Positions 15,734 through 28,277 of a stretch of DNA of 64,000 bases are shown one piece after another. The DNA comes from Rhizobium sp. 16-488-2b. Its GTDB lineage: Bacteria; Pseudomonadota; Alphaproteobacteria; Rhizobiales; Rhizobiaceae. The stretch covers positions 124,001 to 188,000 of the forward strand of contig NZ_JAGHMF010000014.1 in assembly GCF_017741815.1 (NCBI RefSeq), in the 5' to 3' direction. Numbering within the stretch: position 1 is the first letter of the stretch; each line of letters starts with the position of its first letter. The notes beneath the pieces were generated by a model. It did no database searches, was not told the origin of the DNA, and was given only the letters and a program-made list of their open reading frames with translations. The position numbers and the translations under genes were made by a program.

Positions 15734-15994
15734 TCGACCAGACTTCTGACCTAAAAGGCCGCCTGATTGGCGTGCAACACGGCTCCGCCGGGGGAGCCGA
15801 AACAGCCTGTTCTTGCGATACCGCCCGCCGTGTATGGGCAAGCGGATCCAGCCTCTTCAAGCACTTGACCCGCAGTGCACGCGCCTATGGCGCAATGTCG
15901 CAGGTCGGGTGAACCAATAGCCCCGCCGTTGCAACGACAGCCAAAAACCCGCAAAACCGAACTTCGACGGTAAGAACGAAGGACATGGCATTTC

Positions 15995-17635
15995 ATGGAA
16001 AGCATCAGCGTTTCGTTGATCCTGCTCTTTGCAGTGGTCGTTAGCGGAACACTCACCAGGCTCTCCCCGATCCCGATCCCGCCGCCTCTCGTGCAGATCG
16101 CGCTCGGCGCCGTCATCGCCTCGGTGGCCGATCTTGGTGTGAACCTCGATCCCGACCTCTTCTTCCTGCTCTTCCTGCCGCCGCTGCTCTTTCTCGATGG
16201 CTGGCGCATTCCAAAGGAAGGCCTGTTGCGCGACAAGACCGTCATCCTCGAGCTGGCGCTCGGCCTCGTCATCTTCACCGTTCTCGGCGTCGGCCTGCTG
16301 ATCCACCTGCTCATCCCCTCCATGCCGCTCGCGGTCGCCTTCGCGCTGGCAGCCATCCTCTCGCCGACGGATCCGATCGCCGTTTCGGCGATTGCCGCCC
16401 GCGTGCCGATCCCCAACCGTCTGATGCACATCCTCGAGGGTGAATCGCTGCTCAACGATGCATCCGGCCTGGTTTGCATGCGGTTTGCGGTCGCTGCCGC
16501 ACTCACCGGCACCTTTTCGCTGACGGATGCCGTCGGCACCTTCTTCTGGGTGGCGATCGGCGGCATTGCCATCGGCGTCGGCGTCACTTGGGCCGTCATG
16601 CAGCTGCAGCGCTTTATCACGCGCAAGCTTGGCGAGGAGACCGGCTCGCAGATCCTCATCAGCCTGCTCTTGCCGTTTGCCGCCTATCTGATCGCCGAAC
16701 ACCTGGAATGCTCCGGCATTCTGGCGGCGGTCGCGGCTGGCATCACCATGAGCTACGGCGAGCAGAGCGGCCGCGCATCCGCCGTCACCCGCGTGCGCCG
16801 CACCGCCGTATGGGATACGGTCCAGTTCGCCATGAACGGCGTCATCTTCGTGCTGCTCGGCGAGCAGCTCCCGCAGATCGCCTCCAGCGCCATCCACATC
16901 GTTCGCGAAACCGGGCATTATGACCCGCTGTGGCTCATCGTCTACATCGTCGCGATCAACGTCGCGCTCGCCGCGCTGCGCTTCTCCTGGGTCTGGGTGT
17001 CGCTGCGCTTCACGCTCTACCGCGCCGCCCGTAGCGGCTACGATTTTACCCGCCCGAGCTGGCGCCTCGTGGCCGCCACCTCGCTTGCCGGCGCGCGCGG
17101 CGCCATCACGCTCGCCGGTGTTCTGACATTGCCGCTGACCATGGGCGACGGCTCCCCCTTCCCCGGCCGCGACCTGTCGATCTTCCTCGCCGCCGGCGTC
17201 ATCATTGTCTCCCTCGTCGCCGCCAGCATCGGCCTGCCCTTCCTCTTGAAGAACCTGCATGTGCCGGCAGAACCCTCCCACCAGCGCGAGGAGGACGAAG
17301 CGCGCATCCGCGGCGCCGAGGCCGCCATCAAGGCGATCGAGCAGCTGCAGCACGACATGGGCGAAGGCCGCGCCGATGCCGACCTCTACGCCGACGCCGG
17401 CGCCCGCCTCATGGACGTCTACCGCCAACGCATCGCCGGTCGCTCCAAGACCGGCGACGACGCCATGCTCGCCCGCCGCAGCGAAGAAATCGAACGCAAG
17501 CTGCGTCTCGCCGGCGTCAAGGCCGAACGCGCCGAGTTTTTCCGCCTCGCCAAGAACCGCAAGCTCTCGGAAGAGCTGATGAAGAAGCTCGTGCGTGAGG
17601 CTGATCTTGCCGAGGCGCGTTTTTCGGGGACGTGA
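15995..17635 (+). CDS. Na+/H+ antiporter of the CPA1 (NhaP/NHE) family
   Basis: A 546-residue membrane protein with about twelve hydrophobic segments in the first 415 residues. The CPA1 signature motifs are present: FLPPLLFLDGWR, the ion-binding ILSPTDPIAVSAIAARVPIP and EGESLLNDASGLV segments, and GARGAITLAGVLTLP. The last 130 residues are a soluble, charged, mostly helical tail rich in Glu/Arg. It would exchange sodium (or potassium) for protons across the inner membrane for pH and salt homeostasis. It stands alone, between the EF-hand gene and an array of intergenic repeats. Confidence 0.9.
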   Translation: MESISVSLILLFAVVVSGTLTRLSPIPIPPPLVQIALGAVIASVADLGVNLDPDLFFLLFLPPLLFLDGWRIPKEGLLRDKTVILELALGLVIFTVLGVGLLIHLLIPSMPLAVAFALAAILSPTDPIAVSAIAARVPIPNRLMHILEGESLLNDASGLVCMRFAVAAALTGTFSLTDAVGTFFWVAIGGIAIGVGVTWAVMQLQRFITRKLGEETGSQILISLLLPFAAYLIAEHLECSGILAAVAAGITMSYGEQSGRASAVTRVRRTAVWDTVQFAMNGVIFVLLGEQLPQIASSAIHIVRETGHYDPLWLIVYIVAINVALAALRFSWVWVSLRFTLYRAARSGYDFTRPSWRLVAATSLAGARGAITLAGVLTLPLTMGDGSPFPGRDLSIFLAAGVIIVSLVAASIGLPFLLKNLHVPAEPSHQREEDEARIRGAEAAIKAIEQLQHDMGEGRADADLYADAGARLMDVYRQRIAGRSKTGDDAMLARRSEEIERKLRLAGVKAERAEFFRLAKNRKLSEELMKKLVREADLAEARFSGT

Positions 17636-26716: not shown

Positions 26717-27319
26717 TCATCCCTTGTTGGCGAGGTTCTCCAGCTTTTTTACCGCCGTATCGGGATTTTCGCCATAGGCGATCGTTCCAGCGAAACGCCC
26801 TTGGGAATCGAGCAGGAACACCGAGGCCGTATGGTCCATCGTGTAGTCGCCATTGGGATTGTTTTCGTCGACCGGCACCTTCTTGGCGTAGACGCGATAA
26901 CCCTTGATCACGTCCGCCACCTTGTCGGGCGCGCCCGAAATGCCGACGATCCGCTTGGAGACGTTCGACACATACTGGTTCATCACATCGGGCGTATCGC
27001 GCTCCGGATCGACGCTGACGAAATAGGCATGCAACTTGTCGCCATTGGGATCGACCTGCTTCAGCCAGCCATCCAGTTCGAACAGCGTCGTCGGGCAGAC
27101 CTCGGGGCAATGGGTGAAGCCGAAGAACACCGCCGACGGCTTGCCGCGAAACGCCTGCTCGGTGATCGGCTTGCCGTCCTGCGCCACAAGCGTGAACGGC
27201 ACGCCGAACGGACCATCGGAGGCCACCTCCTTGGTCTGCGTCACATTCAAGGTCAGCCATCCCAGGATGCCGGCCATCAGGAACACGGCAACCCACACGG
27301 CGATACGCACTGTTTTCAT
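26717..27319 (-). CDS. SCO1/SenC family copper-binding protein
   Basis: A 200-residue thioredoxin-like protein with one N-terminal membrane anchor (residues about 5-24). It has the copper ligands of the family: Cys71 and Cys75 in FTHCPEVCP and His163 in MDHTASVF. SCO proteins deliver copper to the CuA site of cytochrome c oxidase or control redox state. The start at 27319 has GAGGAAAT upstream; a longer frame adds a non-signal leader. No cox gene is adjacent, so the partner oxidase is elsewhere. Confidence 0.92.
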   Translation of the reverse strand: MKTVRIAVWVAVFLMAGILGWLTLNVTQTKEVASDGPFGVPFTLVAQDGKPITEQAFRGKPSAVFFGFTHCPEVCPTTLFELDGWLKQVDPNGDKLHAYFVSVDPERDTPDVMNQYVSNVSKRIVGISGAPDKVADVIKGYRVYAKKVPVDENNPNGDYTMDHTASVFLLDSQGRFAGTIAYGENPDTAVKKLENLANKG

Positions 27320-27623
27320 CGATAATTTCCTCGCCCGGGAAAGCAATCCCGCCCCTTGCCTGATATCGCGTCGCCGGCAGCCACGCAATTCAACAAGACG
27401 TTTTTCGGGCCGTGATGAATTGCCTCACCCGTGCGACATCCGCAATCTGCAAAACCTGGCCCGATATTGCCGCGAACCCGCGACATGTTAAATCAATCGT
27501 AACCTCTCCACGCGAACAATCGAAACAACTGAACGAGATCGATACAGCGACGACTCGAAGCCTGACGAACAGGCTGAAGACGCGGCGGGATCGACAAGAC
27601 GAACGTTCAATATCGGCGAGGGC
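27320..27623. other. Upstream region between SCO1 and the cheW unit
   Basis: About 300 bp. It holds the SCO1 Shine-Dalgarno and presumably two divergent promoters. From 27492 onward the frame of the 52-aa gene stays open (residues such as TTERDRYSDDSKPDEQAEDAA) but has no ATG, GTG or TTG before 27624; this may be the decayed upstream part of a chemoreceptor tail. Confidence 0.45.
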
Positions 27624-27782
27624 ATGAATGCCCGTCACACGCCGCGGGAAGCATCAGCAGCCTCGCATCCGAAATCATCTCCCGCCCGAGCCCTCATCGG
27701 CAAGGTCGCGGGCGCATTCAGCGGCGGCAGCGCCGCACGAGCCATGGCCGCTCCGGCCGGAGACAACTGGGAAGAATTTTGA
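27624..27782 (+). CDS. 52-aa microprotein ending in a chemoreceptor NWEEF tail
   Basis: An ATG at 27624 opens 52 codons that stop two bases before the cheW ATG, so the two are probably translated together. The sequence is an Ala/Ser/Pro-rich flexible stretch, with SPARALIGKVAGAFSGG, and ends GDNWEEF. NWEEF/NWETF is the C-terminal pentapeptide of methyl-accepting chemotaxis proteins that binds CheR and CheB. No receptor signalling domain is present upstream. It is either the remnant of a deleted mcp gene or a free tether peptide. The Shine-Dalgarno is only GGCGAGG at short spacing. Confidence 0.55.
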   Translation: MNARHTPREASAASHPKSSPARALIGKVAGAFSGGSAARAMAAPAGDNWEEF

Positions 27783-27784
27783 TC

Positions 27785-28255
27785 ATGAATAGCACTGTCA
27801 TCAACCAGACCGGTTCTCATCTGGAGATCGTGTCCTTCCATCTCGGCGAGCAGGAATTCTGCATCGACATCATGGCGATCCGCGAAATCCGCGGCTGGGC
27901 GCCGGTCACCCCGATGCCGCACACGCCGCCCTACGTTCTCGGCCTGATCAACCTGCGCGGTGCCGTCATCCCCGTCATCGACATGGCCTGCCGCCTCGGC
28001 ATGAAGATGACCGAGCCTTCCGAGCGCTCGGCGATCATCGTCACCGACATTGCCGGCAAGCTGGTCGGTCTGCTGGTCGAACAGGTCTCCGACATGATGA
28101 CCATCAAGAGCGAAGACCTGCAGCCGGCGCCGGAAATCATTCCGGAAGAACAGCGCGCCTTCTGCCGCGGCATCGTGGCGCTGGAAAAGACCATGGTCTG
28201 CTTCCTCAACCTCGACACCGTCATCGCCGACGAACTGGCCCGCGAAGCCGCGTAA
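27785..28255 (+). CDS. cheW: Chemotaxis coupling protein CheW
   Basis: A 156-residue protein, the usual size. It has the two SH3-like subdomains of CheW: LEIVSFHLGEQEFCIDIMAIREI, then VLGLINLRGAVIPVIDMACRLG with the receptor/CheA-binding N-L-R-G motif, and LVGLLVEQVSDMMTI followed by FCRGIVALEKTMVCFLNLD. It links chemoreceptors to the CheA kinase at the cell pole. The ATG at 27785 has GGGAAGA upstream. It is separate from any main che operon and is preceded by a 52-aa frame with a receptor-type tail. A bidirectional terminator follows. Confidence 0.93.
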   Translation: MNSTVINQTGSHLEIVSFHLGEQEFCIDIMAIREIRGWAPVTPMPHTPPYVLGLINLRGAVIPVIDMACRLGMKMTEPSERSAIIVTDIAGKLVGLLVEQVSDMMTIKSEDLQPAPEIIPEEQRAFCRGIVALEKTMVCFLNLDTVIADELAREAA

Positions 28256-28277
28256 GCCATACCGAACGCTTCAATGC

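Follow-up and report, generated by a model that had tools for sequence, protein, structure and literature searches.

A short frame ahead of cheW in Rhizobium is the remaining 3′ end of a chemoreceptor gene lost by deletion, probably kept as promoter and leader of cheW

The chemoreceptors Tar and Tsr of E. coli end in the pentapeptide NWETF, which sits on an unstructured linker some 35 residues long and is bound by CheR (PMC7390727). In the window analysed here (the whole stretch of 64,000 nt from Rhizobium sp. 16-488-2b, genome G000 below), a 52-residue frame directly ahead of cheW is the very end of such a gene, with a linker and a terminal NWEEF that conforms to the xZxxZ motif given in the same paper. 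It differs from receptors of this type in that it is a stump without the signalling, HAMP and sensory parts recognised by Pfam.

Upstream of the frame lies a box similar to the CtrA promoters described for the Rhizobiales. The CtrA consensus in S. meliloti is TAA-N7-TTAAC, with CtrA motifs at minC, rpoD and flaA/C/D (PMC3616915), and CtrA directly controls mcpT, mcpU, mcpW and mcpZ in this species (PMC4433202). The likeness to the promoters covered in these papers is a TAA-N7-xTAAC box placed before chemotaxis genes. The differences are one mismatch to the consensus, shared by all 143 loci with the box, and the position of the embedded box, which at intact loci is inside coding sequence; binding by CtrA would be a prediction.

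A related gene arrangement is described for Agrobacterium, where cheW2 (atu2617) stands alone outside the che cluster and adjoins the chemoreceptor gene atu2618 (PMC12654446). The likeness is that of a cheW beside a chemoreceptor gene, and the Agrobacterium loci examined here carry a reverse-oriented box before cheW. In A. fabrum the receptor gene is downstream of cheW2, whereas in the window it was upstream and has been deleted; the two are likened by arrangement. Among open-licence papers in PMC, no description of a cheW promoter inside a chemoreceptor (mcp) gene was recognised.

The stump of a receptor gene

The features of the region, in the coordinates of the window, are as follows.

26717–27316, reverse strand: sco1-like gene (SCO1/SenC by Pfam), transcribed away from the intergenic flank at 27317–27430
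27317–27430, no strand: intergenic flank on the left side of the deletion, 97.4–98.3% identical to intact loci L033–L036 and 90.5% to L037
27431–27482, no strand: deletion junction, lacking about 1.6 kb of mcp coding sequence together with the stretch that holds the mcp gene's own promoter-like box
27483–27548, forward strand: surviving piece of the mcp signalling domain, encoding VKSIVTSAREQSxxLNEINTA in a frame other than that of the tail
27488–27503, forward strand: promoter-like box TTAAATCAATCGTAAC, of the form TTAA-N7-NTAAC, CtrA-like
27515–27520, forward strand: AACAAT, a possible weak −10 element 11 nt after the box, proposed by analogy with the mcp-promoter box and its CTATAT
27620–27633, forward strand: inverted repeat GGGCATGAATGCCC (block 2), surrounding the ATG of the 52-residue frame
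27624–27782, forward strand: 52-residue frame, the 3′ end of an mcp (tail and NWEEF tether), matching the C-termini of intact MCPs
27765–27779, forward strand: NWEEF codons AACTGGGAAGAATTT, containing the Shine-Dalgarno-like GGGAAGAA of cheW
27785–28255, forward strand: cheW (Pfam PF01584, E-value 4.5e-39)

The frame translates as MNARHTPREASAASHPKSSPARALIGKVAGAFSGGSAARAMAAPAGDNWEEF and its C-terminal residues are GDNWEEF. Its stop codon ends at 27782, and the ATG of cheW follows two bases on, at 27785. This arrangement had been noticed in an earlier, sequence-only reading of the window and is confirmed here, with cheW identified by Pfam. The same reading had described the frame as open back to 27492 without a start upstream, and the ATG at 27624 is indeed its sole start codon. 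At an E-value of 0.001, the 52 residues matched no Pfam family (no MCPsignal, HAMP or sensory part), so that of the parts expected in a functional MCP the signalling domain is absent and the C-terminal CheR/CheB pentapeptide is present. The absence of a signalling domain upstream, also stated by that reading, holds for the frame itself; a piece of one does lie at 27483–27548, in another frame. The upstream extension, which had been taken to fit a decayed receptor, consists mostly of this frameshifted remnant and the junction, with little receptor sequence in frame.

A search with 27300–28260 against 148 genomes of the genus gave matches in all 148, weakly in G110. In the nearest relatives with an intact locus (G119, G114, G106, G072 and G132), a frame of 665–691 codons ending in NWEEF stands in the same place, two bases before cheW, and the G119 protein carries the MCP signalling domain (PF00015) and HAMP by Pfam. 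The last 52 residues are identical in four of these five genomes and differ by one residue in G132. At the nucleotide level, the 180-nt tail is 100% identical (180/180) to G119, G114 and G072 (L033, L034 and L036) and 99.4% identical to G106 and G132; the cheW genes of the same five loci are 95.7–98.1% identical to that of the window, and the left flank is 94.8–96.0% identical.

In an alignment with G119, the match breaks off at 27430 of the window and resumes at 27603, with 172 nt between these points against about 1.99 kb in G119, a net loss of 1.8 kb relative to L033. The junction (27431–27482) had no match in the intact loci L033–L037 and is 82.5% identical, over 40 of its 52 nt, to Rhizobium metallidurans DSM 26575 (G050), which has the same deletion. 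The island at 27483–27548 is 90.9% identical to codons within the intact G119 mcp and 100% identical to G050 over 65 of 66 nt. In G050 the tail is frameshifted and the 52-residue frame is destroyed. A search of G000 for the receptor's sensory half gave no match at an E-value of 1e-5, and relocation of the receptor to another part of the genome was rejected on this ground. Among the eight genomes searched, seven of which had been picked for a non-intact locus, this half was found in G119 alone.

The sequence-only reading had offered the last piece of a deleted mcp as one of two explanations, to be checked by looking for a full mcp at the locus in relatives. It is borne out by the intact orthologues in the same place, by the loss of most of the gene with no second copy found, and by decay of the tail in relatives such as G050. 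These comparisons show the 52-residue frame to be the 3′ stump of an mcp that was deleted along with the stretch holding its own promoter-like box. The frame is open in this genome because of a recent common origin with intact receptors, and no selection on the peptide is needed to explain it.

The region 27317–27782 looks mosaic: the deletion and the island are as in R. metallidurans, and the tail and flanks are nearer to the mcp-keeping group of G119. This mixed ancestry suggests recombination across the locus. Elsewhere, G000 has 38 MCPsignal matches, compared with 20–29 in five relatives, and contig C3 of the same genome carries three equal-scoring MCP signalling domains (242–709, 15775–16242 and 222431–222898) that are possibly recent duplicates.

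Receptor loss across the genus

The locus was analysed in 147 of the 148 genomes, G110 being left out for its weak match. A locus was counted as intact if cheW is immediately preceded by an mcp frame longer than 600 codons, and remnants were assigned from tblastn hits. By these definitions there are 58 intact loci, 18 remnants and 71 loci without a recognisable mcp. The tail frame is open in eleven of the remnants, including L044 and L045, which end in NWKEF, and broken in seven (G050, L043, L046, L068, L081, L084 and L104). On a cheW tree, 13 changes between the intact and non-intact states were counted, eight of which are forced by well-supported branches; the counts are rough, given the poor resolution of the tree, in which 23 of 143 inner branches are starred, and the likely recombination at what looks like a mosaic locus.

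A further 39 loci outside the 147 were compared. They come from a set of 80 named loci, and are those of L264–L315 whose contigs, by length and name, are not among the 147, with L236–L263 excluded. At 15 of the 39, from Neorhizobium, Ensifer, Sinorhizobium, Pararhizobium and other genera, a full mcp stands in the same position. The mcp-cheW arrangement would on this evidence be the ancestral one.

A CtrA-like box within the receptor coding sequence

The box TTAAATCAATCGTAAC is the only occurrence of TTAA-N7-NTAAC in the 64-kb window. In either orientation, a box of this form was found within 450 nt upstream of cheW at 143 of the 147 loci, compared with 0.7 in mononucleotide shuffles, a comparison that overstates the significance of the count since the loci are related. 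The forward orientation, that of the window, occurs at all 58 intact loci, where the box is inside the mcp coding sequence, at 16 of the 18 remnants and at 43 of the 71 receptor-less loci.

In intact genes the box is covered by the codons for V550–S556 (GTT AAA TCA ATC GTA ACC TCT), which are largely rare and nearly fixed. When the intact mcp was scanned for codon constraint in windows of five codons, the five best of 523 windows all overlapped the box. Codon-usage divergence over seven columns peaks at residues 550–556, at a value that a single one of 20,000 permutations of the columns attained, with the seven-column width picked after the five-codon scan had located the box and the permutations ignoring dependence between neighbouring columns. 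Paralogous mcp segments had the box in 0 of 30 cases, the segments being selected loci from six genomes and not all of their MCPs. The second-best codon-constrained window is at residues 628–636 (in L033), in the linker after block 2.

Similarity to the mcp changes around the box. In the window it is 0.87 for the 30 nt after the box versus 0.53 for the 30 nt before; the corresponding ranges are 0.90–0.93 versus 0.47–0.60 in five loci of the G024 type, and 0.47–0.63 versus 0.17–0.47 in receptor-less loci with a forward box, against a background of 0.33 (sd 0.08) after and 0.32 (sd 0.09) before. The stretch before the box is thus above background in the window and in the G024 clade, which places the edge of the deletion near the box and not exactly at it. 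Eight of the 39 outside loci have the box, always in reverse orientation, and all 15 outside loci with a full mcp lack it. The embedded box is therefore a feature of Rhizobium. Seven of the outside loci, from Agrobacterium and similar genomes (L280, L291, L294, L296, L298, L302 and L308), carry a reverse TTAA-N7-NTAAC box 146–153 nt before cheW.

A box of the reverse type also occurs at 48 of the 58 intact loci in the 250 nt that precede the mcp start, all in reverse orientation, against 0.4 expected, with the start assigned by motif or as the first Met. The mcp-promoter box and the embedded box thus have opposite orientations. At 26 receptor-less loci it is the reverse-orientation box that stands before cheW, followed by CTATAT 10 nt later; here, it seems, cheW was joined to the promoter of the mcp gene itself, with loss of almost the entire mcp. 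Either box type is therefore kept at 143 of the 147 loci, and at the other four the best match is off by one base. This retention of one box or the other is the strongest sign that the box has a function.

A scan of 27320–27900 for a sigma-70 consensus found no promoter, and a promoter of this type was rejected for that region. The box in the window reads TAA-N7-GTAAC, and all 143 loci with a box have G or C in place of the consensus T, a single mismatch to the CtrA sequence. The regulator may be CtrA; given a mismatch common to all 143 loci, it may also be another protein. TTAA-N8-TAACC has 28 matches in this genome compared with 19 for a reversed control, so that single matches are weak evidence. 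Eight protein fragments beside these 28 sites, chosen by eye, were identified by Pfam as MinC, two flagellins, sigma-70 region 1.1 and protoglobin, with three giving no match. These neighbours, the S. meliloti consensus and the control of mcp genes by CtrA in that species point to CtrA; the mismatch, the small excess over the reversed control, the sigma-70 scan and the lack of the box in full mcp genes outside the 147 speak against it.

The cheW leader and reasons for retention of the stump

The NWEEF codons of the stump contain GGGAAGAA, which stands 8 nt before the ATG of cheW, and AACTGGGARGARTTY has a single match in the genome. A purine core (GGAAG, GGAAA or GGGAA) occupies this place in 88 of the 89 non-intact loci and is present in 4% of windows drawn at random from the leaders. 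A looser Shine-Dalgarno pattern is present in 89 of 89, yet also in 17% of random 18-nt leader windows, and the stricter core was used instead. A frame ending in [NT]WEEF is present at all 58 intact loci and at 37 of the 89 non-intact loci, and both NWKEF remnants retain the purine run. Among receptor-less loci with codons of the WEEF type, 23 of 25 have no ATG, GTG or TTG in the open frame (these were counted with the motif W[EK][EQ]F, hence the difference from the [NT]WEEF count), showing that the codons are not kept there for a peptide, at least not one begun at these starts. The NWEEF codons TGGGAAGAATT thus include a sequence of Shine-Dalgarno type, which would serve cheW as its ribosome-binding site.

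Block 2, the inverted repeat around the ATG of the frame, is the other conserved part of the leader. Among 39 leaders that were chosen by box position and not by the block itself, the counterpart AGAAGGGCATGACGCCCGCCGG hardly varies. The sequence GGGCATGA was found within 330 nt of cheW at 52 of the 58 intact loci, at 17 of the 18 remnants and at 41 of the 71 receptor-less loci. In 40 of the 71 the block has the form AAGGGCATGACGCCC; L141 and L176 are examples of leaders with the repeat. In a set of 40 loci chosen by block 2 itself, its conservation is circular. A wider version of the pattern occurs once each in G000, G119 and G016 and is absent from G001, which has the other type of promoter; block 2 was not found within 330 nt of cheW at the 26 loci with a reverse box. 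Eight leaders, including that of the window, matched no RNA family in Rfam at the gathering threshold. Folding of block-2 RNA in the window was no better than that of shuffled sequences (z 0.07), and reached z −2.17 in one receptor-less leader.

We consider it probable that the stump was kept as promoter and leader of cheW after deletion of the mcp, and not for its peptide. Were it a plain pseudogene without function, its tail and box would be present only because the deletion is recent, as could be argued from a tail that matches three intact genes over 180/180 nt and is too young to show decay, and from the 7 of 18 remnants already broken. This is unlikely, since a box persists in receptor-less clades in which the rest of the mcp is unrecognisable, the embedded box is codon-constrained in intact genes, and cheW requires some promoter and Shine-Dalgarno sequence at this place. 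The second explanation put forward by the sequence-only reading, a free tether peptide selected as a microprotein that recruits CheR/CheB to CheW clusters, can draw on the intact linker and NWEEF end in this genome, on the tethers of Tar and Tsr bound by CheR, on the open tail frame of 11 of the 18 remnants, and on an ATG inside a strongly conserved block. It has become extremely improbable nonetheless. That reading had held that frameshifts in close relatives would speak against selection, and the tail is frameshifted in the sister deletion of R. metallidurans and broken in the six other remnants named above; two more end in NWKEF, and the WEEF-type frames of receptor-less loci lack a start codon in 23 of 25 cases. 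A start, frame and residues conserved without the parent gene, as expected of a microprotein, were not found, and the intact frame in the window is accounted for by its identity with intact mcp genes.

Translation of the leader could also matter irrespective of the peptide made, if ribosomes starting at block 2 and stopping just before cheW were coupled to its translation. Block 2 does include an ATG behind a stretch rich in purines, the block hardly varies in the 39 leaders, and the stop in the window is 2 nt before cheW. At the 58 non-intact loci with block 2, however, the frame from this ATG ends at −2 in 14 cases, at +4 in 10 and elsewhere in 10, and in 24 it runs into cheW; the 26 reverse-box loci have no such block within 330 nt. 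With frame ends scattered in this way, a coupled or otherwise conserved leader frame was rejected as a general rule, and as the reason for retention of the stump it is highly improbable. It is very unlikely, too, that block 2 is a real regulatory element of the cheW leader and the translation start for transcripts from the embedded promoter. In that case, species with an intact mcp would make a tether peptide or coupling leader in addition to the complete receptor, and the 52-residue frame would be its translated survivor.

Retention as promoter and leader of cheW starts from what the genome comparisons establish, namely the deletion of the receptor, the decay of its tail in relatives, the retention of box and Shine-Dalgarno sequence, and the constraint on the codons over the box. 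What is added to the sequence-only reading is why the stump was retained: the 3′ end of the receptor gene very probably also regulates cheW. This second role would fall, in Rhizobium, to the final ~355 nt of mcp coding sequence. An activator, perhaps CtrA, would bind the box at 27488–27503, RNA polymerase would start slightly downstream of it and produce a separate cheW transcript, and ribosomes would load at 27769–27776 to make CheW. After loss of the receptor, decay would be tolerated outside the box and the ribosome-binding site, allowing a receptor-like tail to survive for a while. In one large group, the mcp gene's own promoter would have been fused to cheW instead.

The locus illustrates that a short frame may carry a striking functional motif and yet be a fossil, the surviving bases of which were probably kept for another reason, and stumps of this kind may enter catalogues of microproteins. 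The receptor's final codons would be the ribosome-binding site of the next gene, and a stretch of its signalling domain appears to hold the cheW promoter. This suggests that the dosage of CheW in Rhizobium has been made independent of the neighbouring receptor, allowing the receptor to be lost in many lineages. If so, synonymous changes within an intact mcp are predicted to alter the expression of cheW.

The 24 block-2 frames that run into cheW comprise 13 in the frame of cheW and 11 in another frame. Those in frame are from 11 receptor-less loci (such as L156, L163, L165 and L171) and the remnants L043 and L104. Frames of this kind could mislead gene callers into annotating a CheW protein with an extended N-terminus.
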